A DNA stretch of 62,735 nt from Ihuprevotella massiliensis (GTDB lineage Bacteria; Bacteroidota; Bacteroidia; Bacteroidales; Bacteroidaceae): contig LT608321.1 in the NCBI GenBank assembly GCA_900095835.1, positions 613,581 to 676,315 on the forward strand, read 5' to 3'. The position numbers and the translations under genes were made by a program. The notes beneath the pieces were generated by a model. It worked only from the letters and a program-made list of their open reading frames with translations. It did no database searches and had not been told where the DNA came from. How positions within the stretch are numbered: position 1 is the stretch's first letter; every line of letters begins with the position of its first letter. Shown here one piece after another: positions 23,621 to 62,735 of this stretch.

Positions 23621-23901
23621 ACCGTTTGCCTTTGGTGTAGTAGACCAAGACTAGAACCACCGAGAGATAAGATGCCAATAAGAAAATGAAAAAGGAGAGG
23701 TCCTAATCTTTTCCGTTACCAGTAACGCTTTTACGGTCTAATGACCAATTTGGGTTAAAAGCAAAGTGCTACATTATTTTCGAGCTTCAGCTTTGTTCAC
23801 GTACTTCAGTACGCTCCCTTCAGCCTCAATGCCTTACATTTTATCCCTATATAAAAGACCCTAAGGAGCTGCTGTAAAAACAAGTTTTGCAACACCTCCG
23901 C
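23621..23901 (+). repeat. 281-bp direct repeat, copy A1
   Basis: This stretch has the same length as, and roughly 85% identity by eye to, 31565-31845 in the same orientation. The best-kept part is the right half: TCGAGCTTCAGCTTTGTTCA, the hairpin CGTACTTCAGTACG (23800-23813), and the end CTAAGGAGCTGCTG through CACCTCCGC. On the minus strand both copies show remnants of the same reading frame (LLASY...VLVLV.YTKGKR), so it may be the decayed tail of an old gene. It lies between the rpsA terminator and an IS element inserted at its right edge. Confidence 0.8.
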
Positions 23902-23917
23902 TTAAAAACATATATAG

Positions 23918-24999
23918 CTGTCCGGTAAAAGTTTTTCTGATGATAAAAATAAGGCTGAAACCCTCTTGCAGGATTTCAGCCTCTTTTGTTACTTTGCTTG
24001 TTGGAAAAAAAACTAGCAACATGAGCAAAAGTACATATTTTACCGGACAGCTGCTCAGTGAGCTGTCAAAAAGCCTAGGAACAGCAGCTGTATATGATGG
24101 ATTCTACCACAATCACGCTCTTTGATAACATTCTCAAAGGAGTAGGCAGACATCCTAAAAGCGGAAAGAAGAAAGGCGGCATGAAGGTACACACCATTAT
24201 GAAGTATCAAGTAGGTGTACCCATGGTGGTAGAACTGACCTCTGCTGCCAAACACGATCATTATCTTCTCAAAAAGGTGCACCTGCCCCAAGATTCCACC
24301 TTGGCAATGGACAGAGCCTACATTGACTATGCTCAGTTTCAAAGGCTTACCGAAGAAGGTGTCTGCTATGTGACTAAGATGAAGAAGAATCTTAACTACA
24401 AGGAGCTCTATTCTACAGCCTATGTTTCTCGTGATGGTCTAGTCACTCATATCGACAAACACATTCTTTTTGAGAAAGAGAAGGTAAGGCACGAAGCCCG
24501 ATGTGTAGAGCTATGGAGCAATAACTCTCGTAAGTCAGTGAGATTGCTGACCAACAATTTTGAACTATCGGTTGAGCAACTTGCTGAAATCTACAAGTGC
24601 AGGTGGGCTATAGAAACGCTATACAAACAACTGAAACAGAATTTTCCTTTGCACTTTTTCTATGGTGAGAGCGTGAATGCCATCCAAATACAAACCTGGG
24701 TTGTACTCATTGCCAACCTCTTGTGCACAGTGCTCTCTAGAATGATAAAAAGACACGTTTCTTTTTCTCAAATCGTAGCCATGCTTAGATTGACGCTCAT
24801 GTATTACACCAATTTCATCGCTTTCATGGAAGATCCTCAAAAGGATGAGTGTACAATTTGGGCTGAAAGAGCTAAATCCCCACCCTCGGAACCATCATTA
24901 TTCGATTAGGGGGCTTGTTTTCTCAAAATGAAAGCCCGAAGTCCTATTCTAAAGGGCTTCGGGAAACTTTCTTGTGTCGTTTGGAAGTTTACCGGACAG
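23918..24999 (+). mobile_element. Internally deleted IS4-family insertion sequence
   Basis: Terminal inverted repeats CTGTCCGGTAAA (left, 23918) and TTTACCGGACAG (right, ending 24999) delimit about 1.08 kb. Just inside the left end is a hairpin (GGCTGAAA 23953-23960 / TTTCAGCC 23974-23981, then TCTTTTG), a common guard against read-through into a transposase. The transposase is broken. No clear target-site duplication is visible. Confidence 0.85.
24021..24909 (+). pseudogene. IS4-family transposase, internal deletion and frameshift
   Basis: The N-terminus MSKSTYFTGQLLSELSKSL reads from 24021 in one frame; the rest reads from 24094/24097 (MMDSTTITLFDNILKG) in another. The DDE core is intact: first Asp in MDSTTI, second Asp in LAMDRAYIDYAQF, and the IS4-family Y(2)R(3)E(6)K signature in YKCRWAIETLYKQLK. 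Compared with usual IS4-type transposases (about 380 or more residues), some 100 or more residues between the start and the first catalytic Asp are missing, with a frame change at the junction. It is likely inactive, though the terminal repeats could still be moved in trans. Confidence 0.82.
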
Positions 25000-25044
25000 C
25001 AATAATTTGTATTGTTGTCAATCTATATAGGATGAACACCTATG

Positions 25045-26112
25045 TTAAATTTCATTTTGTACTTCTTCTATCAGATTTCTTGTTCTAATAAGCATTTCGC
25101 TGTAGAGGGCAAACTCTTTATCCTTGATAGTTTGCTCATTCTCGATTTCTTTGATTTGATTGTCAATATCGGCGATCTTTGGATTCAAATTATCTTCAAC
25201 CCATGTTTGAGTGTCCTCATCAAAACGCATGTCGATAACGTTTGCTACTTCACCAAAAGAGTTTCGGATGTCACTACGATATGAAATAAGTTGTTTCTCA
25301 GCCTTACTTTCTTCATGATCGTTCCAAATCTGCAAACCAATTCCTAAAAGAGCACCTCCTACACCGAGTATCTTGCCAAATTTGCCGATCTTAGATGCTG
25401 TCTTTACGGCCTCCCAAGGCTTAAATTTATGGCCAAAGAAATGACCAACTTTAAGAACTGATTGATGTGCATTAGAACCTGAGTATGTACCAAGCTTGAA
25501 AATGGCATTCCATCCGGATTCGGCACTCTTACCTGTTGCAAATTTTGACATCCATTTTCCTGCTTCACCTGCTTTTTCAGCACCTGATTTAAGATTGGAT
25601 GCAGTTTGCTTCGACATTTTAACATCTTGAATTTTTCTTTCGATAGCAGATTTTAAGGACTTTACAAATTCTGACTTCTCCAGTTTTTGAGCAAACTTTT
25701 GGAGTTCGTTGTTTTCGTACATAATAACTTCCTCGAGTTCTTTGGCTGCTTTCTTATAAACGCTATCTGTTGCATCATATTTTTCTTGTAAACGATTGTT
25801 TACTTCTTTTTCATTATCAGACGAAGACAACAGATTCGCAATTTCATATCCCCAATTTCGAACTTCTTGTGTGTTTCGTCTGATTATGTTATATGACTTA
25901 GTCTTAATATGTTCTTTAGCGTCAACAAGGGCTTTGCGTTGCTGGTTAAGCAAGTCCAAAGTACCATCAACACATATATCTCCTGTCTTGAATTCAGACA
26001 ATGCTTCTGAAAGCATCTGTTCTAGTTTATACAAAGAAGTTGTACACTTGCCAATTACTTTCTTTTTTTTGAATAAATTTATTGGTGTTATCAAAAAGAG
26101 AAGAAAATCCAC
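25045..26112 (-). CDS. C-terminal part of a LeoA-like dynamin GTPase (split by frameshift)
   Basis: This 355-residue frame is almost all alpha-helix and has no start context of its own; its first about 17 codons overlap the end of the upstream GTPase frame. From KVIGKCTTSLYKLEQML onward it reads as the natural continuation of that GTPase: a long helical stalk (about 15-165), then a Gly-rich hydrophobic tip GKILGVGGALLGIGLQIW (about 265-285) like the membrane paddle of LeoA-type bacterial dynamins, then a closing coiled coil. Joined to the 248-residue part at the A8 tract it gives about 576 residues, near the size of E. coli LeoA. The inferred job is membrane association and assembly of the GTPase. 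Confidence 0.7.
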   Translation of the reverse strand: MDFLLFLITPINLFKKKKVIGKCTTSLYKLEQMLSEALSEFKTGDICVDGTLDLLNQQRKALVDAKEHIKTKSYNIIRRNTQEVRNWGYEIANLLSSSDNEKEVNNRLQEKYDATDSVYKKAAKELEEVIMYENNELQKFAQKLEKSEFVKSLKSAIERKIQDVKMSKQTASNLKSGAEKAGEAGKWMSKFATGKSAESGWNAIFKLGTYSGSNAHQSVLKVGHFFGHKFKPWEAVKTASKIGKFGKILGVGGALLGIGLQIWNDHEESKAEKQLISYRSDIRNSFGEVANVIDMRFDEDTQTWVEDNLNPKIADIDNQIKEIENEQTIKDKEFALYSEMLIRTRNLIEEVQNEI

Positions 26113-26773
26113 TCATTTCTAACAACTGATCCTTATCCTCACCTTCTGCCTCAATAGAGTCAAGATAAGAATATGTGTCAATGTATGTAACGAACAAATC
26201 TTCTGCAGAATACTCTGGAGATATCACTGGGAGCACGTCGCACTTGAAGAATTCTTCTTGTCCTTCTTTGGTGTTACCATACTTGGAATCCTCCATTTTG
26301 TTGAATACCAACATCATCTCATTTCCTTTCCCTTTTTCTATCAAGAGTTTTCTGAAATGAGTACCCAATCCGTCACTAAAACCTTCTGCTGTACAAACAA
26401 ACACTATAAGGTCGGCTTCAGACATCGCATTGTAAGTGATTTCATCATGGTCAGGACGCTTTTGAGTATGAATTCCAGGAGTGTCAACCACCTCAATACC
26501 ATTCCAATCAAGGAAGTTGCACTTATTTGTTGTAACACCTTGACCAACTTCCAGTTGTTGTCCTGTTAAAATGGACAGAATAGAAGACTTACCAGCACTG
26601 TACTGCCCCACAAATACGATTCTAACTTTTTTGTCATCATCTACAAATTTTGTGGGCACAGACTTGGATTGTGATCTTAGTTTCTCTGATGATGACGAAG
26701 CGAAGGCTTTAGTCGCATCCGAAAACAAATCGAGCGAAGCCTTGTTGAGTTGTTGAATTTTAATGCTATCCAT
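26027..26773 (-). CDS. GTPase domain of a LeoA-like dynamin protein (split by frameshift)
   Basis: A 248-residue frame carrying a complete dynamin/GIMAP-type G domain: G1 GQYSAGKS (56-63), G2 Thr81-Thr82, G3 DTPG (97-100) and a G4-like FNKMED (157-162). After residue about 236 it runs through eight A (plus-strand T 26063-26070) into a short tail and stop. Removing one A fuses it in frame to the helical ORF at 25045-26112. It starts one nucleotide after the stop of the 711-residue GTPase gene, so the two are tightly coupled. Together they resemble the two-gene Eleos (LeoA/LeoBC) defence system. Confidence 0.72.
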   Translation of the reverse strand: MDSIKIQQLNKASLDLFSDATKAFASSSSEKLRSQSKSVPTKFVDDDKKVRIVFVGQYSAGKSSILSILTGQQLEVGQGVTTNKCNFLDWNGIEVVDTPGIHTQKRPDHDEITYNAMSEADLIVFVCTAEGFSDGLGTHFRKLLIEKGKGNEMMLVFNKMEDSKYGNTKEGQEEFFKCDVLPVISPEYSAEDLFVTYIDTYSYLDSIEAEGEDKDQLLEMSGFSSLFDNTNKFIQKKESNWQVYNFFV

Positions 26774-26774
26774 A

Positions 26775-28910
26775 TTACTTTAGAATTATATGTACATTTA
26801 ATATTTGTTGAATAAGATCCAAAGAATCAAGTTCAGTCTGTTTATATCCATTGCCATAAAGATAAACAACAGTCTGAGTTTCGTTGTTCACTTTCTTAAT
26901 AAGTGGTTTATTCTTAAATCCGAAATATATGAGAAGGAATACTATTTGAGATTCTAGTTTTCTGTGAGGATCAAGTTTTATAATACTTATAGTTTCATTA
27001 TTGCCTAGATGTGAAGCCAATTCTGATATTTTTAATGGAAGATTGTCCCTTCCATCTATGACAATAGCAATTCTTCTTCCTGGTACCCTTGCCACGCATA
27101 TGATACGATCAAGCTCAGAAATAGGTATATTCATCAAATAGAATATATTTGCAATCATCATTTTCGTGATATTTCTGTGGTTCTTGCTATATCCGATTGC
27201 AAGTTGCCTTTCACCACTAGATAGCGAGAGCATGCTACGTCCAACCAAAGATAAGCGTTTGGTAATCTGTTCTTCCTGAACCTCAATATTGCGTTCATAC
27301 CATTTTGTGATTTTCTCTTTTGCTTGGTTTTCAGCTTTGTCTATTCTCTCATTCAGCTTTTTTGAGAGTTTCGCTCTTCTTTCTCGAAGTTTATCTTCTC
27401 GAGAATCGCATAACCAAGTAAAGAATCCAAAGATTGCAGTAACACTTAGTGCTGCCCAACCTAATGGTCCAGAGGAGAGTGCAACTGCAGCAATTGTTAG
27501 ACCTGCAGAACCAATTGCACCAGCCCATTTCATTCCTCTTTTCCAATTGATAAATTGGTAATTACCCAACCCCGTATCAACTTTCCACTTAAGCGAAAAG
27601 TTCATTTCTGTTTTTAATTCAGAGAAGATGTCATTGATTTTTTCTTCAAGTTTGTCTTTGACTGAATTGACACTTTTTTCGATATTGTTGTGAGTATTGA
27701 ATTGAGCACAATGGTTTTTCCAAGCATTGTTAACATCGTCATCTTCTAAATGACGTTCAACAAAACCTGGGATAGAGTTCCTAACCTTATTGTATTCCTG
27801 TGTAACTACTCCTTGTATTCTTTCCTTTTGGTTCTTATTGAAAGATACACACCAGTCATTAAATAAAGACACCTTATCCTGAATGACTCTAAATTGACTA
27901 TAAGCTTCTGCACTGAAAGCAAAAAGTTGATTCATTTGTTGATACAAAGGTGCATCAATTATTGAAAGGTAACACTTTTTACGATGAAGTACTCCATTAG
28001 TATATACCTCATTGATAATTGATTGCTCAACATTTGAGAAACGGCTAACTTTCTCTAATTCTGCGCTTTTTGAGGCATATTCTGGTTGTTGCGAACAAAA
28101 TTTAGCAAGCAAATGTGTAATAAGGAAATCAACATGCTCGTTTGGTAATTGTTCGTGTAAAAAAATATTGAATTGATTTACTAGCTCCTTAATATTCATT
28201 CTTTCCTCAAGTTTTTGAGGATTTGATAGAAGTCGTTTTAAGCGGAAATCATCCACACCTTCTCCAAGACTTTGTTTATAGTTACAAATACAAAGGATTG
28301 GTTTATCCATTTTCTTGAGTTTAACCATCCAGTCTGCTTCTGTTCCTTCTGGCTGTCCTGCTGTTATCATGAAAAGGATCAAGTCTGCATAAACAGCCGC
28401 TTCTTCTGCCTTCGCATCATCTTCTTGTCCTCCATAAGCGTCTATTCCTGGAATATCTGTTACACTCATCCCTTTCCACTCATAGCTACGAACGTCTCGA
28501 GTTGTTCTTTGCCCCCCTTTGCCCATGTGTGAACCATCTCCATGGGTAAGAATTTCCATAAGAGTACTTTTCCCAGCTTTTGTTTTACCAAACAAAGTTA
28601 TATTAAACTTATCAGACATCTTTCGCTTGATATTCAAGTTGCTTTGAGTGTCATGATATGAGTTTTCAAATTCAGTTTGAACAGTCTGAAGCTGAGTTCG
28701 TATATTATTGATTAGTGACGCGTCATTAATATGAAATCTTTTCATTCCATCAATACAGTCTCTAATAATCTCTGTGGCTTGGGAAATAGAATCGTGAAGT
28801 TCGTCCAAATATATCAAAGCCTCAGTATATCCTTGTTTGTTAGCGGCTTGGCAAGCTTTCAGAGCGGCTTCCAAACTATTTGGTTCTACTTTCTTGAATA
28901 AATTAAACAT
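26775..28910 (-). CDS. Dynamin-like GTPase, LeoBC-like (Eleos-type defence candidate)
   Basis: A 711-residue predicted membrane-remodelling GTPase. An N-terminal helical region (1-100) precedes the G domain: G1 GKTKAGKS (108-115), G2 Thr136-Thr137, G3 DIPG (152-155). The G4 position reads NYKQS, a degenerate NKxD. A hydrophobic hairpin at about 460-503 (MKWAGAIGSAGLTIAAVALS and a second segment) is flanked by long charged helices, as in bacterial dynamin-like proteins. The C-terminal about 120 residues form a separate alpha/beta domain of unknown role. It is first of a two-gene operon with the split LeoA-like GTPase. Its DNA is visibly more A+T rich than rpsA or pgk, and MITE copy 1 ends 52 nt upstream of its start. 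Confidence 0.72.
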   Translation of the reverse strand: MFNLFKKVEPNSLEAALKACQAANKQGYTEALIYLDELHDSISQATEIIRDCIDGMKRFHINDASLINNIRTQLQTVQTEFENSYHDTQSNLNIKRKMSDKFNITLFGKTKAGKSTLMEILTHGDGSHMGKGGQRTTRDVRSYEWKGMSVTDIPGIDAYGGQEDDAKAEEAAVYADLILFMITAGQPEGTEADWMVKLKKMDKPILCICNYKQSLGEGVDDFRLKRLLSNPQKLEERMNIKELVNQFNIFLHEQLPNEHVDFLITHLLAKFCSQQPEYASKSAELEKVSRFSNVEQSIINEVYTNGVLHRKKCYLSIIDAPLYQQMNQLFAFSAEAYSQFRVIQDKVSLFNDWCVSFNKNQKERIQGVVTQEYNKVRNSIPGFVERHLEDDDVNNAWKNHCAQFNTHNNIEKSVNSVKDKLEEKINDIFSELKTEMNFSLKWKVDTGLGNYQFINWKRGMKWAGAIGSAGLTIAAVALSSGPLGWAALSVTAIFGFFTWLCDSREDKLRERRAKLSKKLNERIDKAENQAKEKITKWYERNIEVQEEQITKRLSLVGRSMLSLSSGERQLAIGYSKNHRNITKMMIANIFYLMNIPISELDRIICVARVPGRRIAIVIDGRDNLPLKISELASHLGNNETISIIKLDPHRKLESQIVFLLIYFGFKNKPLIKKVNNETQTVVYLYGNGYKQTELDSLDLIQQILNVHIILK

Positions 28911-28962: not shown

Positions 28963-29418
28963 CCTTAATTCCGCAGCATAAATTCTTGTAAGAACTCCAA
29001 GTGCCTGAGAAACATAGTTCTCAAAACCCTTGGATATGTCAGAAATTCCCCTATCTCGGTGCTGTAAACATAACAAGTAAGCAAAAAAACTGACATGGCA
29101 AAGGTAGCAATTAAAAACGAGAATTTCACTTCTTTCAGTGGAATTTATTACATTATGGACATTTTCTCAAAGTTGGGTTGTGAAAAACTCATCGAATCTG
29201 TATTGGGTAAACGTGGAAGTAGCGGCAAGGCATTCAATCATGGAAGCATTTTCGGCTCTATCTTCTTCAGGTACCTTCCCCATTCGTTTGGGTGGAGGAT
29301 TTCATGCATAGACAAGACCCAGGAAGCCCCCAAAAACCTCAAAACAACACGAAGAGCCTCAAAAAGACATCTCAACACATAAAATCGCCTCACAAGGAAA
29401 AACGCTGCGGAATTGAGG
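28963..29418 (+). mobile_element. IS1380-derived MITE, copy 1
   Basis: About 456 bp with terminal inverted repeats CCTTAATTCCGCAGC (28963-28977) and GCTGCGGAATTGAGG (29404-29418). It contains the first about 60 codons of an IS1380-family transposase (from 29095: MAKVAIKNENFTSFSGIYYI, then MDIFSKLGCEKLIESVLGKR), then jumps to the right end. The second copy at 31123-31563 shares this deleted structure, so it looks like a non-autonomous family rather than two independent decays. No target duplication is visible. Confidence 0.8.
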
Positions 29419-29427
29419 TTTTAAACA

Positions 29428-29578: not shown

Positions 29579-31060
29579 TTAATTTTCAGTATAATCTGCG
29601 ATGAGCTGCTGGAGTCCTTCTTTTGTGCGGGTGTCATACTTGGCAGCATCCATGCTCGGCTTATTCAGATATTCCGTAGTCAGCTTAATTCTTTTCTTCT
29701 CGCTTCGTGTACCTAATAATGCTTTGTCGCCAAGATAGATAGCTTCCTTTCTGTCCTTCAGCTTCAGATAAAGTTCATTTTTATCTAATGGATGTTCCAG
29801 GATGTAATTGTCCTTTCCGTCGGTAAAGAGTACCTCGAAGAACTGTGGGTGGCGTGTTCCGATATTAAGAGAACCATTGCCGCCGGCGTTTCTTAACACA
29901 CCGTCTTTTGAACCCTTTGCACCGATATAGGTTTTGCCACCTGCATAGACGGTTACGTTGTCTGCAGCCTTGAACTTCTGTTCGGTCTTGCCGTTCGCAC
30001 CGTTGTGCGTCAGTGTTACGGTTGATCCCATTGCCGGTGCGTCAAGGTCGAGGATTCCACTGGTTCCTTTACCCATCTTCTTTTCAATAGATTCATATAC
30101 GATAGTGATGTTGCCTTCATGTGTTGTGCCGTCAGCAAGTACCACCTTGCCGGGCACATTATAGATGTTCACGGAAGCATCTCTGACCTCTTTCACCAAC
30201 TGTCGTTCCTCTTCGGCAGCCTGTTGCTCATCTGCTTTTGCCTTGTTTGCCAGTCGCAGCTTGATATTCTCCGTCATATCTCCCAGTGCATAGCCGTTTG
30301 CAAGCAGTTTTGATACCATACGGCGCAACATCTCGTCCTCGGAGAGTTTGGATGCAGTATTGTATTGCAGGAAGGGAAGTTTTCTATTATCACAGGTTGT
30401 TATGTTGCTGAAATTCTCGCTCCTGGTCCAAGATTCGAGCTTAATCTCCGCTACTTGGTTGCCCACACGGTCCTTGACATAATAGTCTCTTTTGCCTAAT
30501 GAATGTTCATTGACAAAAACCTTTCCCACCATCTCTTTGTTGATGATAATGTCACCATTGTTGTTGATGGAGAAGGGATGCTGTGCGGTAAACTCCTCAT
30601 CGGTTTTCTCCATATTTTTGACTATGGTATAGAGGCTGTCCCATTTTGCAGAGAAAGGACGCGAGCCCTGCTTGAAGAGGTCGTCAATGGTGGATGTCTT
30701 GATACCGTCCACTGCGATGATCTGGGGTTTGCTGTCTAACAGTTTGTAGACAAGGTACTTCGTGGTGGACAGTACAATCCTGTCTTTCGGGTTTTGCAGT
30801 TCAAAGACTGCGCCCTCAGGTGATGTGAACTGGAGCCAGTCTTCTGGTGTGATGATGCCTTGTTTTGTCTTGTTCGTAATGAAGAATGTGAACACCTTTT
30901 TCCCATCTGGCGTAGAAAGGTCGCAGACTCTTTTCGCTTCTTTTACAAGTGCTACTGGTGTTCCGCCAAGTAATACCTCCCCTTTCTTTATTTTCAGGTC
31001 TTGGGCATGTGCGGAAAGCAACATGAAGCTGGCGATGAAGCCTAATACTGTTTTTCTCAT
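29579..31060 (-). CDS. Secreted protein of unknown function
   Basis: A 493-residue protein with a classic type I signal peptide (MRKTVLGFIASFMLLSAHAQ). The start at 31060 is preferred over an in-frame ATG at 31123, which lies on the MITE end. The mature part looks like a beta-rich N-terminal half, a charged helical stretch (about 255-285) and a C-terminal half with repeated strand-turn segments (GKVVLADGTTHEGNITI and later GGKTYIGAKGSKDGVL). No catalytic motif, lipobox or sorting domain was recognised. It is flanked by two copies of the same MITE in direct orientation. Confidence 0.75.
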   Translation of the reverse strand: MRKTVLGFIASFMLLSAHAQDLKIKKGEVLLGGTPVALVKEAKRVCDLSTPDGKKVFTFFITNKTKQGIITPEDWLQFTSPEGAVFELQNPKDRIVLSTTKYLVYKLLDSKPQIIAVDGIKTSTIDDLFKQGSRPFSAKWDSLYTIVKNMEKTDEEFTAQHPFSINNNGDIIINKEMVGKVFVNEHSLGKRDYYVKDRVGNQVAEIKLESWTRSENFSNITTCDNRKLPFLQYNTASKLSEDEMLRRMVSKLLANGYALGDMTENIKLRLANKAKADEQQAAEEERQLVKEVRDASVNIYNVPGKVVLADGTTHEGNITIVYESIEKKMGKGTSGILDLDAPAMGSTVTLTHNGANGKTEQKFKAADNVTVYAGGKTYIGAKGSKDGVLRNAGGNGSLNIGTRHPQFFEVLFTDGKDNYILEHPLDKNELYLKLKDRKEAIYLGDKALLGTRSEKKRIKLTTEYLNKPSMDAAKYDTRTKEGLQQLIADYTEN

Positions 31061-31098
31061 CTTACTTATTTGAGTTTTAGATTGATATGAATTGGCTG

Positions 31099-31129
31099 CA
31101 AAGGTAGTGATTTTACATATCACCTCAAT
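31099..31129 (-). promoter_or_regulatory. Promoter of the secreted-protein gene; -33 box within the MITE terminal repeat
   Basis: The plus-strand CAAAGGTA (31099-31106) reads TACCTTTG on the minus strand, a perfect -7 box. Nineteen bases upstream, CAAT (31126-31129) reads ATTG, three of four bases of the TTTG -33 box. That tetramer lies inside the left terminal repeat of MITE copy 2 (starting 31123). Confidence 0.55.
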
Positions 31130-31563
31130 TCCGCAGCATAAGTTCTTGTGAGAACTCCAAGTGCCTGAGAAACATAGTTCTCAAAACTCTTGGAACTGTC
31201 AGAAATTTCACCTATCTCGGTGCTGTAAACATAACAAGTAAGCAAAAAACTGACATTGCAAAGGTAGCAATTAAAAACGAAAATTTCACTTCTTTCAGTG
31301 GAATTTATTACATTATGGGCATTTTCTCAAAGTTGGGCTTTGACAAACTTACCAAATCTGTATTGGGTAAACGTAGAAGTAGTGGCAAAGCATTCTGTCA
31401 GCTCTCTCTTCTTCAGTTACCTTTCCCTTTGGTTTGGGTGGGCGATTTTAGGCTTAGAAAAGACCCAAGAAACCCCGAAGCATCTCATATCAACATATAG
31501 AACCCAAAAAGGCATCTCAACATATAAAATTTTCTCACAAGAAAAAATACTGCGAAATTAAGG
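31123..31563 (+). mobile_element. IS1380-derived MITE, copy 2
   Basis: About 441 bp. Left terminal repeat CCTCAATTCCGCAGC (31123-31137), decayed right repeat ACTGCGAAATTAAGG (31549-31563). It has the same order as copy 1: imperfect hairpin (CCAAG...TGAGAA / TTCTCA...CTTGG), transposase start with GIYYI and SVLGKR segments, the same jump to the right end. The right end abuts direct repeat A2 (31565) almost base to base. Confidence 0.8.
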
Positions 31564-31564
31564 A

Positions 31565-31845
31565 ACCGTTTGCCTTTGGTATAGTTGACCAAGACGAGAA
31601 CCAACGAGAAATAAGATGCCAATAAGAATATGAAAGAGCTCAGGAAGTTATCTGCTCCATTATGCTCTGCACTATAACGCTCTAATGACCAATTTAGGAT
31701 AAAGACAAAGTGCTGCATTATTTTCGAGCTTCAGCTTTGTTCACGTACTTCAGTACGCTCACTTCAGCCTCAATGCCTTACATTTTATCCCTATATAAAA
31801 GCCCCTAAGGAGCTGCTGTAAAAACGAGTATTGCAACACCTCCGC
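31565..31845 (+). repeat. 281-bp direct repeat, copy A2
   Basis: Second copy of the repeat at 23621-23901, same length and orientation. Together they bracket about 7.7 kb holding the IS4 remnant, the dynamin-like operon, both MITEs and the secreted-protein gene. The hairpin CGTACTTCAGTACG is unchanged. A third, short and degenerate piece lies at about 35231-35262. Confidence 0.8.
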
Positions 31846-31862
31846 AAAAACGTACGAGCTAT

Positions 31863-55799: not shown

Positions 55800-58700
55800 A
55801 TGAAACTCTTCCTGCAAAGCATTTTGCATCGTTTATGTTCATCACGACTTCTTTTTGCTGTGATGGCATTCTTTTGTCTACTCATTTCCCCTGTTAAAGC
55901 CCAAAATGTCAGTTGCTCCTTAGCCAATAAGGTCTATACCGCACCTGGACAGATGGGTAAGGCTTATGCGATATTAAACAACTGGGAACGCAACACTTTG
56001 GTACACAAGGTGGGCTACACCTTAAACCTGAATGGGAAGACCACCGAAGAACGCACTATTACGTTAGACACTCCATTGGATTACAATGGCAGTTCAACTA
56101 TCGCCATTGACATACCCGCTGGCACTCAACCAGGGCTTGACGATTTCTCCGTTACGATTGTATCGGTCAATGGAGCACCCAATCGCAATTTTTCTCCCAC
56201 AAGCGGAAGCGAGCGTTACACCCTCACTCGTCCAGTATGGCGCAAAGCTGTGGTGGAGGACCTCACAGGAATGTGGTGTCCCAACTGCCCCACTGGCATA
56301 GCTTCTCTGGAGCACCTCAACAAAGTTGCTTCTGACCGCGTCATCGGACTAGCAGCGCACGATGGTGACGCATTGAATGCAGGCGATTATAATCATGTCT
56401 TCAGAAAATTCCCAGGACGTCCGAAAATTGTACTCAATGGCGCACATGTTGTGGCGCCCTATTACGGCAACAGCGGTACAGACGAACAACCCTTCGGTTT
56501 GCTTGCCGATGTAGAAAAGGCTTCTGGGGCACAAAGTGCGGTGGAGGTGAAAGTACAAGCAGCATGGACCGCCGACCACAAAGGCATAGAAGTACGTAGT
56601 TCCACGACCTTCCGCTGTCCTGTTTCAGAAAACAAGTATCGTTTGGCTTATGTGCTGACTGCAGATAATTTGAGACATCCTAGTTTTTATCAAAACAACA
56701 ACGCAACGGGTGACTCAAGATGGGCGAATAGCGTACCAGAGATGAAGTTCTTCTATAATGCACCAGGCACTGTAAAAGACTTGCCTTTTAACGATGTAGT
56801 TTTCGCAGCAACGGGTATCTATCAAGGTATCGAAGGTAGTCTTCCTAAGCAAATGCCACTCGATGCTCCCTTCATTCACACTCAGAAATATGGAAGCTTT
56901 TCCAACTTAACATCTAGAGCATTCAACTTCATCAAGAAAGACACGAAGGTTCACGCTGTGGTGTTAGTCATTGATCCCGAAAATCGAGAGATTATCAATG
57001 CAGAACGTTGCGTTGTAGGGGATTCCTTTTCTCCTTTCTCACAAGACCCAGAGGCGCCTCTCAAGGTTGAACGCATCGAAATGCCTGAGACAGTGACGCA
57101 ACCACTCAACAGCGAATTTACGCTACAAGCAAAAACTTTCCCCCAAGAAGCCACCAGTGACATCGTGTGGGAAGTGGCAGATTCAAAGGTTATAGAGTCA
57201 CTCGGTGGCGGTAAATTCCGCGCCCTCAAAGTGGGAGAAACAACTATTACCGCTCGTGCAAAAGACGCTGGCGGAGTGACTGCAAAATGCGTAGTGCGCG
57301 TGCCTGCTCCAAATGTGGTACGCATCGAAATGCCTGCGAATTTAACGCAAGCACTCAACAGCGAATTTGTCTTGACAGCTAGGACTTTCCCCCAAGAAGC
57401 CACCAGTGACATCGTGTGGGAAGTGGCAGATTCAAAAATCATAGCATCCCTCGGTGACGGCAAATTCCGTACCCTCAAAGTAGGAGAAACCATCATCACC
57501 GCACGTGCACAAGATGCAGGTGGTGTGACCGCAAAATGCGTGGTACGCGTGCCAGCTCCCAATGTGGCACGCATCGAAATGCCTGCGACAGTGACGCAAC
57601 CACTCAACAGCGAATTCGCCTTGACAGCTAAGACCTTCCCCCAAGAAGCAACCAGTGCCATCGTGTGGGAAGTGGCAGATTCAAAAATCATAGCATCCCT
57701 CGGTGGTGGCAAATTCCGCGCACTCAAAGTAGGAGAAACCACCATCACCGCACGTGCAAAAGACGCTGGCGGAGTGACTGCAAAATGCGTAGTGCGCGTG
57801 CCTGCTCCAAATGTGGTACGCATTGAAATGCCTGCGAATTTAACGCAAGCACTCAACAGCGAATTTACGCTACAAGCAAAGACTTTCCCTCAAGAAGCCA
57901 CCAGTGCCATCGTGTGGGAAGTGGCTGATAAGACCATCATTTCCTCTATCGGTGGTGGCAAGTTCCGCGCCCTCAAAGTGGGAGAAACCACCATCACCGC
58001 ACGTGCAAAAGACACTGGCGGAGTGACTGCAAAATGCGTAGTGCGTGTGCCTGCGCCCAATGTGGCACGCATCGAAATACCTGCAAATTTAACGCAACCA
58101 CTCAACAGCGAATTTACGCTACAAGCAAAGACTTTCCCCCAAGAAGCCACCAGTGACATCGTGTGGGAAGTGGCAGATTCAAAGGTTATAGAGTCACTCG
58201 GTGGCGGTAAATTTCGCGCCCTCAAAGTAGGAGAAACGACTATTACCGCACGTGCACAAGATGCAGGTGGTGTGACCGCAAAATGCGTGGTGCGTGTGCC
58301 TGCGCCAATTGTAGCACGCATCGAAATGCCTGAGACAGTGACGCAACCACTCAACAGCGAATTTACGCTACAAGCAAAAACTTTCCCCCAAGAAGCCACC
58401 AGTGCCATCGTGTGGGAAGTCGCAGATTCAAAGGTTATAGAGTCACTCGGTGGTGGCAAATTCCGCGCACTCAAAGTAGGAGAAACGACTATTACCGCTC
58501 GTGCAAAAGACGCTGGCGGAGTGACTGCTCAATGCGTAGTGCGCGTGCCTGCGCCCAATGTGGTACGCATCGAAATGCCAGCGACATTGACGCAACCACT
58601 CAACAGCGAATTTACCTTGCAAGCGAAGACATTCCCCCAAGAAGCCACCAGTGCCATCGTGTGGGAAGTAGCAGATTCAAAGGTTATAGAGTCACTCGGT

Positions 58701-59525
58701 GGCGGTAAATTCCGCGCCCTCAAAGTAGGAGAAACCACCATCACCGCACGTTCAAAAGACGCTGGTGGTGTGACTGCAAAATGCGTAGTGCGCGTGCCTG
58801 CGCCAAATGTGGCACGCATTGAAATGCCTGCGAATTTAACGCAACCACTCAACAGCGAATTTACCTTGACCGCTAAGACTTTCCCCCAAGAAGCCACCAG
58901 TGACATCGTGTGGGAAGTGGCTGATAAGACCATCATTTCCTCTATCGGTGGTGGCAAGTTTCGCGCCCTCAAAGTGGGAGAAACCACCATCACCGCACGT
59001 GCACAAGATGCAGGTGGTGTGACCGCAAAATGCGTAGTGCGCGTGCCTGCGCCAAATGTGGCACGCATTGAAATGCCTGCGAATTTAACGCAACCACTCA
59101 ACAGCGAATTTACGCTACAAGCAAAAACTCTCCCCCAAGAAGCCACCAGTGCCATCATGTGGGAAGTGGCAGATTCAAAGGTTATAGAGTCACTCGGTGG
59201 TGGCAAATTCCGCGCCCTCCAAGTAGGAGAAACAACCATTACCGCACGTGCAAAAGACGCTGGCGGAGTGACTGCAAAATGCGTAGTTACTGTTATTGCC
59301 CCCACGGCAATAGTGTCTCAGACTATCCCTCTCGTAGTTTATCGCAACAACACGACGCTTCTGATCGAAGAGGCACCAGCAGGACTTCCTGTTGTGATCT
59401 ACGACTTATTGGGACGAAAATTAGCTAGCGGTCGTACGAATGCCTCAACAACCCGTCTCCATGTGGGAGAATCTCCGCTGTGGATTGTGGTTGTTGGGAA
59501 CAAAACATATCGCTTAAAACAGTAG
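55800..59525 (+). CDS. Secreted protein: CxxC thioredoxin-like region, nine Big_2 repeats, T9SS-like C-terminal domain
   Basis: A 1241-residue exported protein. The signal peptide ends near VKAQ (about 35). Residues about 145-400 resemble the Omp28/thioredoxin-fold family, with a redox-type Cys160-Pro-Asn-Cys163 in EDLTGMWCPNCPTG. Residues 425-1171 are nine Big_2 (Ig-like) repeats of exactly 83 residues each, beginning RIEMP and ending VVRVPAP. The last about 60 residues (VVIYDLLGRKLASGRTN, then WIVVVGNKTYRLKQ) match the type IX secretion C-terminal sorting domain. A surface-anchored or released stalk protein is inferred. The C10 protease gene follows 43 nt later. Confidence 0.88.
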   Translation: MKLFLQSILHRLCSSRLLFAVMAFFCLLISPVKAQNVSCSLANKVYTAPGQMGKAYAILNNWERNTLVHKVGYTLNLNGKTTEERTITLDTPLDYNGSSTIAIDIPAGTQPGLDDFSVTIVSVNGAPNRNFSPTSGSERYTLTRPVWRKAVVEDLTGMWCPNCPTGIASLEHLNKVASDRVIGLAAHDGDALNAGDYNHVFRKFPGRPKIVLNGAHVVAPYYGNSGTDEQPFGLLADVEKASGAQSAVEVKVQAAWTADHKGIEVRSSTTFRCPVSENKYRLAYVLTADNLRHPSFYQNNNATGDSRWANSVPEMKFFYNAPGTVKDLPFNDVVFAATGIYQGIEGSLPKQMPLDAPFIHTQKYGSFSNLTSRAFNFIKKDTKVHAVVLVIDPENREIINAERCVVGDSFSPFSQDPEAPLKVERIEMPETVTQPLNSEFTLQAKTFPQEATSDIVWEVADSKVIESLGGGKFRALKVGETTITARAKDAGGVTAKCVVRVPAPNVVRIEMPANLTQALNSEFVLTARTFPQEATSDIVWEVADSKIIASLGDGKFRTLKVGETIITARAQDAGGVTAKCVVRVPAPNVARIEMPATVTQPLNSEFALTAKTFPQEATSAIVWEVADSKIIASLGGGKFRALKVGETTITARAKDAGGVTAKCVVRVPAPNVVRIEMPANLTQALNSEFTLQAKTFPQEATSAIVWEVADKTIISSIGGGKFRALKVGETTITARAKDTGGVTAKCVVRVPAPNVARIEIPANLTQPLNSEFTLQAKTFPQEATSDIVWEVADSKVIESLGGGKFRALKVGETTITARAQDAGGVTAKCVVRVPAPIVARIEMPETVTQPLNSEFTLQAKTFPQEATSAIVWEVADSKVIESLGGGKFRALKVGETTITARAKDAGGVTAQCVVRVPAPNVVRIEMPATLTQPLNSEFTLQAKTFPQEATSAIVWEVADSKVIESLGGGKFRALKVGETTITARSKDAGGVTAKCVVRVPAPNVARIEMPANLTQPLNSEFTLTAKTFPQEATSDIVWEVADKTIISSIGGGKFRALKVGETTITARAQDAGGVTAKCVVRVPAPNVARIEMPANLTQPLNSEFTLQAKTLPQEATSAIMWEVADSKVIESLGGGKFRALQVGETTITARAKDAGGVTAKCVVTVIAPTAIVSQTIPLVVYRNNTTLLIEEAPAGLPVVIYDLLGRKLASGRTNASTTRLHVGESPLWIVVVGNKTYRLKQ
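57072..59312 (+). repeat. Nine 249-bp tandem repeats encoding Big_2 domains
   Basis: Units start at 57072 and recur every 249 bp (checked at 57321, 57570 and 59064), with no length variation. Most differences are at a few positions: PETV/PANL/PATV, FTLQAK/FALTAK, DSKVIESLGG/DKTIISSIGG. Blocks of variants are shuffled between units, which suggests recent unequal recombination or gene conversion. Confidence 0.95.
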
Positions 59526-59568: not shown

Positions 59569-62500
59569 ATGATAAATAACAAACTTATTCTATCATTTGC
59601 GGTCAGTGTGCTCAGCATGGTTGGGTACACGGCTAAAGCAAATCCTGTGGATATCAGGAAAGCAACAGACATTGCGCGTCAATATATGAGACAGCCAGTG
59701 GCAGTGCCTACTCCTGGTTCTTCTACTATTAGCACAAGATCTGTAGCTGAAGCCCCTGCTTACCACCTCTTTGTCAGCAAAGAGGAGCAACGATTTGTCA
59801 TTGTTTCAGGGGAAAGCCAAATGAATGAAGTGGTGGGTTATGGAAAATTATCCACAGGCGATGTCAATGCTTTGCCACCACAAGTTCACGCTTTGTTGCA
59901 ACAATACACGGAAACAGTGCGTCAAGTGCGCAGTGGACAACAGCCTGCAGCTTCTCTTCCTAAATCGCTGAAGCGCTATGTGACTCCTCTTGTCACAGCT
60001 CAGTGGGGGCAGAGTTATCCTTACAATAGCAAAACCCCTGTTATCAATGGGAAACCCACCTACACGGGCTGCGTAGCCACAGCTGCTGCACAATTTTTGT
60101 ATTTCTACAAATGGCCTAAACAGCGTCCAGCACTCTATGTCCGCAAAGCTGGTGACGGAGACGAAGCCGACACATCGCCCACCTATCTTTGGGAGGCAAT
60201 GAAGGACACACGCGAGCAAATGAAAGACTTCCGTTCTGTGCACGCTGTTGGTCGTCTGCTGGTAGACGTGGGTAAAGCCATTCGCATCACATTCGGCACC
60301 CAAGCCAGTCCCTCCAACATCGAATACACCCTCGATGCTTTGCAAAATGACTTTGGTTATACCACACGCTTGTTGCACCGCGATCGCATGCAAGCGGACG
60401 AATTTCGTGAAGCAATCATGCAAGAGCTTTCCGATGGCTACCCTGTGATGGTTTGCGGTGGTATCCATGCCTTTATTTATGATGGCTATGACCGACGCGG
60501 CTTCATTCATGCCAACTTTGGTTGGGATGGTCAAGGCGATGGCTATTATGATATTAACACCATCACCACTCCTCTGCCTGGTCCGTTTATGGGCAATGGG
60601 CAGTTTTGGGAAAACCAAGTGGTACTGATGGCGCACCCTAAGAATGGACAATACCCGGACTTCCCCACCCCACAACGCACATTGGGCGCGCGCAAGAATG
60701 CTGCTTTTGAAATTAGTCCCCGAACAGGAGACGCAAACACTCGTTTTAATGCAACGATTTCCTCTGGTTCTTACCATCCAATGAATGGAGAGTTCTATCG
60801 TTTCACTGGACAAGTGGGCATTGCGGTGATGGATCAAAAAGGGAATACGGTAAAACTGATTAACTCTAACAATAGGAATTTTGAATGGACAACCATTTTC
60901 ATGACACAAAATATCCCTATTGAAGACATTCATTTTGCTGACATTCCTCAAGGCGACTATCTCTTGGTGCCCGTTTCACGTGAGCTAGTGGCGAAGAATC
61001 CAGATAAATACGAGGCGTGGTATCCTATTGAATATGCCAATCGCATGAAGTTGGCAGTAACCAGTAGCGGAGTCTCCGTGACGGATGAGATCCAAGGGGG
61101 TGCCTTGACCGTGTGCCGAGCCCCCGAAATGCTCTTCCCCGCTTATGCAAACGTAGGAGAACCTGCCATGATAACCTTCGGCGTGCGTAATCCCAATGTG
61201 GATGAAGTGCATGGCAATTTGAGAATGACGTTTGAACCCGTGAATGGTGGGGCTAAATTTGTGGCTCCTTTCACCAACAATAGCATTGTGTCATTCCGCC
61301 GTTTGGCAGACACACAAGTGGCAGTGAACTTTCCCACAAATTACTCCGACAACACGGGTCCTCATGCGATGGCTCCAGGACGTTACAATGTGAAACTAGT
61401 GTTGGAAACAACCAATACTAAGACCAAACAATTCATACCTCTTGGTGCAGATCAAAATTTCCAAATCGATGTTTTGCCTTATCCTGAAATCAAAATTAAG
61501 GTAGACAATATTGATTTCTTGGTGAATGGCAATGAAGTCAATCAACAAGTATTTGATGTCACCAAACAACGAGAAATTGGTATGCGGATTCATACAGAAA
61601 TCCGTGGCAATAATCAAAAGTACTATTATAGCAAGATTTACTATCGTTTAGTTTGTCCAGAAGCCAACGAGTCGATTGAAGCTGGACAATCTGGAAATGT
61701 GACATTACGCCCCTTCCAACGCACAGAACCAAACTCAACAGTTGCCAAAATTGACCTCAAACGCTTAACGCCTGGACGTCGCTACGAGGTTCACGTTGAG
61801 ATTGACGAGAATGGTAAACGCCGTGAGATTTGGACAAACGACTATCCTCGTGCGCAAATAATGGTGGTGAATGGAAAAAGCAATTCGACACCAGACCACC
61901 CCACCAAGCCTGTTGTTCCCCCAACTCCCGAACAACCTTCTCAACCCGAAACCCCGAAGGCTACACAGGTGGTGCTGGATGCAACCCTACGCAATGTGAC
62001 TGTGGACGATGTCTTCAATCTAGTTGCTAATGTCTTACCCAAGGAAGCTAACCAAAAGGTGACGTGGCACTTGAGCCAACCTGGTATTCTGGACATGGTC
62101 GGAAATGGTCAATTCAAAGCCTTGAAAGCGGGAGAAGTGACCATCACTGCTACTGCACAAGATGGTAGCGGAATGAAGGCTACATGCCACGTAACGGTGA
62201 AGAATCCGATGACTACACAAGTGGTGCTGAATGAAACGCAACACCACGCGATTGTAGATGATGTATTCACCCTTACTGCTAATGTAATGCCCGAAAAGGC
62301 AGCACAATACGTGGTTTGGACGATGGATAGAACTGACATCCTCCAAGACTTGGGTGAAGGTAAGTTCAAAGCCTTGAAAGCTGGAGAAGTGATCATCACC
62401 GCTACTGCACAAGATGGTAGCGGAATGAAGGCTACATGCCGCGTGGTGGTTAAGAATCCGATGGCTACACAAGTGGTACTGAACAAAACTCAGCATAATG

Positions 62501-62735
62501 CGATTGTAGATGATGTATTCACCCTTACCGCTAAAGTAATGCCCGAAAAGGCAGCACAAAACGTGGTTTGGACGATGGATAAAACCAACACTCTCCAAGA
62601 TTTAGGCAATGGCAAGTTCAAAGCCTTGAAAGCTGGAGAAGTGACCATCACTGCTACTGCACAAGATGGTAGCGGAATGAAGGCTACATGCCACGTGGTG
62701 GTTAAGAATCCGATGGCTACACAAGTGGTGCTGAA
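59569..62735 (+). CDS. C10 (streptopain-family) cysteine protease with Big_2 repeats, 3' end beyond the window
   Basis: An open frame of 1055 codons runs off the window with no stop, so the gene is partial. The signal peptide (MINNKLILSFAVSVLSMVGY, cut after about residue 24) is followed by an inhibitory propeptide with SpeB-like features (YHLFVSKEEQRFVIVSGE). The peptidase then shows AQWGQSYPYN, Cys168 in YTGCVATAAAQF and His300 in GGIHAFIYDGYD, with NFGWDGQGDGYY after it, as in streptopain and interpain A. A long beta-rich region (about 380-765) and a Pro-rich linker lead to Big_2 repeats from residue 799. It probably shares a transcript with the preceding gene. A type IX C-terminal domain would be expected past the edge. 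Confidence 0.9.
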   Translation, partial: MINNKLILSFAVSVLSMVGYTAKANPVDIRKATDIARQYMRQPVAVPTPGSSTISTRSVAEAPAYHLFVSKEEQRFVIVSGESQMNEVVGYGKLSTGDVNALPPQVHALLQQYTETVRQVRSGQQPAASLPKSLKRYVTPLVTAQWGQSYPYNSKTPVINGKPTYTGCVATAAAQFLYFYKWPKQRPALYVRKAGDGDEADTSPTYLWEAMKDTREQMKDFRSVHAVGRLLVDVGKAIRITFGTQASPSNIEYTLDALQNDFGYTTRLLHRDRMQADEFREAIMQELSDGYPVMVCGGIHAFIYDGYDRRGFIHANFGWDGQGDGYYDINTITTPLPGPFMGNGQFWENQVVLMAHPKNGQYPDFPTPQRTLGARKNAAFEISPRTGDANTRFNATISSGSYHPMNGEFYRFTGQVGIAVMDQKGNTVKLINSNNRNFEWTTIFMTQNIPIEDIHFADIPQGDYLLVPVSRELVAKNPDKYEAWYPIEYANRMKLAVTSSGVSVTDEIQGGALTVCRAPEMLFPAYANVGEPAMITFGVRNPNVDEVHGNLRMTFEPVNGGAKFVAPFTNNSIVSFRRLADTQVAVNFPTNYSDNTGPHAMAPGRYNVKLVLETTNTKTKQFIPLGADQNFQIDVLPYPEIKIKVDNIDFLVNGNEVNQQVFDVTKQREIGMRIHTEIRGNNQKYYYSKIYYRLVCPEANESIEAGQSGNVTLRPFQRTEPNSTVAKIDLKRLTPGRRYEVHVEIDENGKRREIWTNDYPRAQIMVVNGKSNSTPDHPTKPVVPPTPEQPSQPETPKATQVVLDATLRNVTVDDVFNLVANVLPKEANQKVTWHLSQPGILDMVGNGQFKALKAGEVTITATAQDGSGMKATCHVTVKNPMTTQVVLNETQHHAIVDDVFTLTANVMPEKAAQYVVWTMDRTDILQDLGEGKFKALKAGEVIITATAQDGSGMKATCRVVVKNPMATQVVLNKTQHNAIVDDVFTLTAKVMPEKAAQNVVWTMDKTNTLQDLGNGKFKALKAGEVTITATAQDGSGMKATCHVVVKNPMATQVVL
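61963..62735 (+). repeat. 252-bp tandem repeats encoding Big_2 domains in the C10 protease
   Basis: Units beginning at the TQVVL codons recur at 61963, 62215, 62467 and 62719, every 252 bp (84 residues). Three are complete and the fourth is cut by the window edge. The core GKFKALKAGEVTITATAQDG is the counterpart of GKFRALKVGETTITARAKDA in the upstream gene, but the two arrays are distinct in sequence and length. Confidence 0.9.

Follow-up and report, generated by a model that had tools for sequence, protein, structure and literature searches.

A predicted NusA-like tandem KH tail in the LeoBC protein of an Eleos gene pair from Ihuprevotella massiliensis

The window analyzed here is a stretch of 62,735 nucleotides of Ihuprevotella massiliensis (positions 613,581-676,315 of LT608321.1), and all coordinates below are positions within it. 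It carries two adjacent minus-strand genes, leoBC and leoA, that almost certainly make up a pair of the defence system Eleos (LeoA + LeoBC). The C-terminal ~140 residues of LeoBC are very probably a degenerate NusA-type tandem KH module, to judge from sequence comparison across the family; this is the new point of the analysis, and the module is common to most LeoBC relatives examined. The explanation as a whole, in which a coupled pair of membrane dynamin-like GTPases carries a KH tail that would sense RNA or transcription, is given slightly better than even chances. The genes and the parts of LeoBC are as follows (AF2, AlphaFold2; aa, amino acids; ORF, open reading frame).

26775-28910, minus strand: leoBC, dynamin-like GTPase of 711 aa (PADLOC LeoBC, AF2 model, Foldseek)
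28281-28601, minus strand: LeoBC G domain, residues 104-210 (Pfam MMR_HSR1, 40.9 bits, cut-off 21.9)
27402-27521, minus strand: hydrophobic stretch of LeoBC, likely paddle or membrane tip, about residues 464-503 (sequence, AF2 model)
26778-27203, minus strand: predicted NusA-like tandem KH tail of LeoBC, residues 570-711, GxxG absent
26973-27122, minus strand: KH1-like half, residues ~597-646, made of strands and a single helix, with a VARVPG motif at 606 (AF2 secondary structure, NusA alignment, motif position)
26781-26957, minus strand: KH2-like half, about residues 652-710, alpha-beta-beta-alpha-beta (AF2 secondary structure, alignment)
26027-26773, minus strand: front piece of leoA, 248-aa ORF with G domain (PADLOC LeoA, Pfam Dynamin_N)
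25045-26112, minus strand: back piece of leoA, 355-aa ORF in another frame, with stalk and hydrophobic tip (PADLOC LeoA, Pfam DLP_helical)
26063-26070, minus strand: run of 8 A, site of the leoA frame break (sequence; the frames of the two pieces overlap around the run)

The gene pair and the C-terminal tail of LeoBC

The ATG of leoA lies one base past the TAA stop of leoBC on the same strand, in the order leoBC-leoA. The PADLOC LeoBC profile matches the 711-aa protein with E 1.6e-88 over residues 12-552, and the LeoA profile (559 positions) matches the front piece with E 2.3e-56 (profile positions 6-261) and the back piece with E 2.1e-36 (positions 245-555). These are the best defence-model matches, in agreement with the likeness to Eleos that had been proposed in a sequence-only reading of this DNA. 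The two coupled minus-strand GTPase genes described there are confirmed by the coordinates, by the G motifs read in the sequence (GKTKAGKS/DIPG and GQYSAGKS/DTPG) and by Pfam, in which MMR_HSR1 covers the G domains of both genes; Dynamin_N scores 47.1 bits in the leoA front piece (cut-off 27) and 17.8 bits, under the cut-off, in LeoBC. The helical stalks and hydrophobic membrane tips that it had also described are borne out by the AF2 model of LeoBC, by Foldseek and by a DLP_helical match in the leoA back piece (41.3 bits, cut-off 25.5), and the pair thereby shows the anatomy of the dynamin superfamily, with a large G domain, a helical stalk and a hydrophobic tip.

The AF2 model of LeoBC was built from a 46-row alignment and has a mean pLDDT of 80.9, with values below 50 at residues 1-6 and 442-503; the latter stretch sits between the stalk helices, and we infer a membrane role for this tip by analogy with BDLP and LeoA. 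The best Foldseek matches of the model are BDLP, LeoA, IRG-type GTPases, IniA and mitofusin, all with low TM-scores of ~0.2, followed by GIMAP5 at rank 39, GIMAP7 at rank 41, and EF-Tu and Era chains at ranks 42-44 (E <= 0.001). Among the NCBIfam housekeeping equivalogs (MnmE, HydF, Der (EngA), EngB, Era), the highest score is 36.5 bits for LeoBC and 40.3 bits for the leoA front piece against cut-offs of 116-326, so that Era, Der and EngB, with which the proposal was to be contrasted, stay far under their cut-offs. A housekeeping GTPase identity is ruled out by these scores together with the structure matches of the LeoBC model.

A close examination of the LeoBC tail links it to NusA. The sequence-only reading had described the C-terminal part as lacking a known domain, which holds for the single sequence in domain models but not once its relatives are brought in. 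The NusA model TIGR01953 was searched in 22 genomes, comprising 10 hosts of a GxxG-bearing LeoBC and 12 others including that of the window, and in 7 of the 10 former hosts LeoBC ranks next after NusA itself (best E 5.7e-10, NusA positions 218-338). Profile alignment with hhalign against NusA gives P 8.9e-21 for the GxxG-bearing tails (15 rows) and P 8.5e-8 for the tails without GxxG, including that of the window (61 rows), compared with 0.027 for the best of 100 shuffles. The best of 100 column shuffles scores 17.8 versus 47.5 for the real tail alignment, the G domain and the mid-region of LeoBC reach probabilities of only 1.6 and 0.3, and the reversed alignment gives nothing; chance resemblance to NusA is ruled out by these controls.

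Pfam KH or NusA-KH models also touch several LeoBC members, and all of the top 12 PDB matches that Foldseek gives for the predicted tail are NusA. The tail has two KH units in the NusA arrangement and shares with NusA the motifs ARxPG and RLAxxLTG-like. Compared with the NusA KH1-KH2 structures (PDB 7ubn, 5lm7, 5lm9, 2atw), the rest of NusA is not found in LeoBC, the part of KH1 in which NusA has its GxxG is shortened, also in tails that retain the KH2 loop, and the KH2 GxxG is missing in the window's clade. The canonical GxxG loop is absent in the window's LeoBC (P0001) and in its nearest relative (L036); of the 86 rows sorted below, 15 have it, in KH2. No KH family was found in LeoA among the best 25 of 54 families listed for 27 LeoA proteins from relatives and both leoA pieces of the window.

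In the five proteins compared, the PADLOC LeoBC profile (601 positions) reaches at most into KH1. It stops before the KH1 motif in P0001 (profile end at residue 552, motif at 606), L036 (581, 606) and L083 (603, 624), and runs 14-32 residues into KH1 in P0004 (611, 598) and L105 (647, 616), while KH2 is uncovered in all five. In the PADLOC LeoB profile (568 positions), position 564 corresponds to residue 585 of P0001, and no KH tail is visible in that profile.

Relatives, tail states and known counterparts

A scan of genome contigs confirmed 234 relatives, 80 of which were taken further. With the loci added from a genome search (L003, L032, L033) and from plasmids (L034, L035) and a second LeoBC in L065, 86 LeoBC ORFs were examined. 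A LeoA ORF starts at most 400 bp from the LeoBC end in 80 of them; at L032 it lies 469 bp downstream, and at L033 a dynamin-like ORF missed by BLAST directly follows LeoBC. Closed ORFs in relatives are near 700 aa for LeoBC and near 570 aa for LeoA. The nearest relative, from Candidatus Sodaliphilus limicaballi (Bacteroidota; L036), is 61% identical and has an intact LeoA of 577 aa. In an uncultured proteobacterium (L065, 157-8393), two LeoBC-LeoA pairs stand in tandem on the same contig.

At a threshold of E <= 1e-10, and with the own genome counted each time, an Eleos match is present in 1 of 58 genomes of the genus, 2 of 201 of the family, 2 of 393 of the order and 2 of 395 of the phylum; the genes are not fixed in relatives, whereas fixation at one locus in all of them is what the sequence-only reading had named as speaking against its proposal. 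Seven plasmid records match, none over >80% of the query. Phage records gave no match, and a scan of viral contigs with a single protein, which reaches close relatives only, confirmed none. The window locus is a rare, otherwise ordinary member of Eleos.

The tails were sorted in 86 rows, that is, the window and 85 relatives, with the partial L112 omitted. Fifteen tails carry GxxG, 58 lack it at a tail length of at least 105 aa, and 13 are short, of which at least L090 is cut by the contig end. The cyanobacterial LeoBC proteins (L092, L099, L101, L109, L110, L113, L115) have short tails with no KH-like stretch. Those of L003 (from the family relative G048) and L035, with 810 and 842 aa, combine a short tail with an extra N-terminal stretch of more than 100 residues; modules at both LeoBC ends vary between pairs, as these two illustrate.

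In a quick tree of the LeoBC core, whose root is not fixed, one part (support 86) comprises all 15 GxxG rows plus 10 short ones, including the seven from Cyanobacteria, L003 and L035, and the other (support 91) holds 57 rows without GxxG, including the window, and 3 short rows; neither fork is starred. L033 forms a separate, very long branch. The three tail states need 7 changes on this tree versus 26.1 in shuffles. On the simplest reading of these sequences, a NusA KH pair was captured once, GxxG disappeared once, in the ancestor of the large part, and the other rows reflect loss or absence.

Millman et al. (2022) are reported to have shown anti-phage activity for Eleos, and the tested system is said to have come from Bacillus vietnamensis NBRC 101237. 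The taxonomy places this strain under Rossellomorea vietnamensis. Since L105 (Rossellomorea aquimaris 97B) is congeneric and has a GxxG-bearing tail, the experimentally tested Eleos probably has one as well. The window shares with Eleos (PADLOC PDLC03839 / PDLC03841) both genes, their order and coupling, the G domains, the stalks and the hydrophobic tips, and differs in that leoA is broken in the assembly.

Several published systems can be set beside this pair. Eleos is counted among dynamin-like defence systems (PMC11811056, PMC10482375). The LeoC-LeoB-LeoA genes of enterotoxigenic Escherichia coli (ETEC) H10407 likewise give a dynamin-like pair with LeoC/LeoB upstream of LeoA, but LeoBC is split there and a single protein in the window; no nucleotide binding was seen there with LeoA by itself (PMC4159319). 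DynA of B. subtilis clusters on the membrane upon phage infection and delays lysis (PMC8844932), and is a single fused double dynamin (PMC4159319) in contrast to the two-gene pair of the window. NusA-type S1-KH domains occur in other, NTP-dependent conflict systems, which thus have NusA-type RNA-binding domains too, but the word dynamin is absent from that text (PMC7159879). In the open-access literature searched, no title was found that joins NusA or KH with dynamin or Eleos.

The broken leoA gene and the setting of the locus

In the window leoA is not an intact reading frame but lies in two frames, with the break at the A run in the assembly. The closed LeoA ORFs of relatives are in one frame in 75 of 79 cases (552-662 aa), which makes a conserved programmed shift unlikely and rules out programmed frameshifting as a family trait. 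The short exceptions are of 212 and 361 aa (both L104), 426 aa (L038) and 518 aa (L088). At these three loci a split or short leoA stands beside a full-length leoBC, so breakage is not unique to the window. Between the window and L036 synonymous sites are saturated, and the fraction of nonsynonymous sites changed is 0.27 in leoBC; in leoA it is 0.19 over the front (residues 1-235) and 0.30 over the back (from residue 31). Both proteins were under constraint, and the leoA break, if real, is therefore late.

Since leoA is broken, the Eleos copy of the window is, on its sequence, probably inactive unless the break is an assembly error. That the gene is not dead, the break being either an assembly error in the homopolymer or an A-run switch (phase-variable frameshift), comes only a little short of an even chance. 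The window has only 3 A/T runs of at least 8; the break falls in one of them, and none lies inside the 24 intact long ORFs checked. The leoA pieces are still 70% and 55% identical to the LeoA of L036, with synonymous sites saturated; the single frame of most relatives' LeoA speaks on the other side.

The features that flank the pair are as follows (IS, insertion sequence).

23917-25000, plus strand: remnant of an IS4-family element that has inverted ends and lies 44 bp beyond the leoA stop (transposase model, ends read)
28963-29420, plus strand: repeat B, a shortened IS1380-type relic, 53 bp ahead of the start codon of leoBC; its positions 28963-29418 form a direct repeat with a second copy at 31123-31563
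23621-23906 and 31565-31850: repeat A, a direct repeat, small and dispersed

The transposase ORF of the IS4-family element (24094-24909) scores 148.8 bits with NCBIfam transpos_IS4_1 (cut-off 115), and partial copies of the element are found elsewhere in the own genome. Repeat B has 13 matches there, counting itself and the second window copy, and larger copies of IS1380 type, to which it is related, occur at other places in the genome, with a best IS1380 score of 158.1 under a cut-off of 180. Sequence of the repeat A type occurs in 30 further places. The direct repeats and IS remnants of the sequence-only reading are thus present; because repeats A and B are dispersed elements, they do not show one mobile unit. 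Its observation that the locus is richer in A+T than the surroundings holds: the four bins spanning 25-29 kb have a G+C content of 0.353-0.365, the remaining window bins 0.387-0.523. The leoBC-leoA DNA is present in a single copy in the own genome (DNA search), the window has no tRNA genes (ARAGORN), and of 13 window genes searched in 12 EF-G loci of genus relatives only EF-G itself was matched. The Eleos locus was probably acquired horizontally.

The nearest neighbours of relatives' loci (115 proteins; 14 loci omitted as near-copies, short or from other sources) were scanned with PADLOC beside a control of 94 proteins from genus relatives in one genus, the output being members per family. The best 25 of 246 families listed for the neighbours include BrxL and PglX (BREX), DrmA and DrmD (DISARM), DrmMI, HmaA, and type I and type IIG restriction-modification proteins. 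The best 25 of 75 listed for the control include mad3 in two proteins and RTasHel, a GajB-type helicase, PDC-S01 and MkoA in single proteins.

Some further observations concern the window and its genome. A 514-aa ORF between the two copies of repeat B (29579-31123, minus strand) has no meaningful Pfam/NCBIfam match, and two long ORFs at 55800-59525 and 59569-62733 contain near-identical repeats of ~80 residues. At C6:978000-992000 of the own genome (L211) there is a tandem array with a 2753-bp unit that contains three CfxA-family class A beta-lactamase ORFs, the one tested scoring 707.4 bits (cut-off 625); these copies lie between fragments of an IS1380-type transposase from an element related to repeat B.

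Possible roles of the tail

In the proposed mechanism, LeoBC and LeoA would form a heterotypic dynamin at the inner membrane. Upon infection the pair would cluster and remodel or stabilise the membrane through its hydrophobic tip, which would curb phage release or end in loss of the cell. The KH tail would serve as the regulatory end, recognising RNA or a transcription complex in the course of infection and licensing GTP-dependent assembly. Canonical RNA binding is to be expected of the tail in the GxxG-bearing clade. In the window's clade, because the GxxG loop is gone, the likelier ligand of the tail would be a protein, the partner GTPase or an altered site on RNA. That the tail is the infection sensor or regulator is itself offered tentatively, at less than even chances. 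A more specific form of the idea is speculative and on balance unlikely: a captured NusA KH1-KH2 would read phage transcripts, or act as a decoy for NusA-hijacking phage factors such as antiterminators of the lambda N/Q kind, and switch the pair to membrane assembly, with the loss of GxxG in the window's clade leaving a protein-binding decoy.

A number of results weigh against this account. For the Eleos assignment, the NCBIfam LeoA/HP0731 subfamily model stays under its cut-off in both leoA pieces (45.1 and 40.9 of 325 bits). For the NusA link, TIGR01953 misses the LeoBC of the window, 3 of the 10 GxxG-bearing loci and all 11 other host loci; the Pfam KH matches in LeoBC are under curated cut-offs; the Foldseek matches of the tail have E 3e-3 or worse and TM 0.43-0.54; and the AF2 models were built from alignments that contain GxxG-bearing kin. 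P0001 and L036 alone give no significant match to NusA (hhalign, probability 2.0), so the NusA link of the window runs through the family. GxxG is missing from 58 of the 73 tails of at least 105 aa, and tails are short in the seven cyanobacterial LeoBC proteins and in L003, the only family relative found; not every such pair therefore needs the KH module. LeoA has also been placed in the periplasm and reported in vesicle release (PMC4159319), and such a location, if true for the family, argues against RNA sensing, which would be senseless there.

The same missing GxxG loops and short cyanobacterial tails, together with the KH1 stretch that is shortened even beside a kept KH2 loop, are what would be expected of a tail that is related to NusA but only structural, packing on the neck or the G domain and aiding LeoBC-LeoA pairing with no role in RNA binding or sensing. 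We regard this as plausible, at clearly less than even chances; a GxxG loop of the IGK/IGR type or similar is kept in 15 tails over long divergence, and both large groups of the tree retain the tail. A role other than defence, as a membrane-vesicle or membrane-stress dynamin of the kind first proposed for LeoABC, appears improbable for a pair that is so patchily distributed in genus and family, low in G+C, next to ISs and, in some relatives, adjoined by defence genes, and of a type with reported anti-phage activity. It would account for vesicle release that is ~50% lower in leoA and leoB mutants (PMC4159319). Convergence of a small alpha/beta fold on NusA is very unlikely: unrelated 40S ribosomal chains reach VIA Z values up to 8.6, the tail's Foldseek E is modest and the two Bacteroidota sequences alone are not significant, but the profile matches to NusA are strong, both KH units stand in NusA order with both motifs, and the root-mean-square deviation is 3.1-3.9 for bacterial NusA rows versus 5.9-7.5 for 40S rows.

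The link between the LeoBC tail and NusA hints at a defence that may sense RNA or the transcription apparatus, and the NusA-type KH tail is a concrete candidate sensor that points to phage transcription, antitermination and RNA. A tandem KH module would also explain the unplaced LeoBC C terminus in the window and in most relatives examined, and would provide a domain with which annotators could extend LeoBC models. If the proposal is true, Eleos would be a transcription-sensing membrane defence that links dynamins with NusA.

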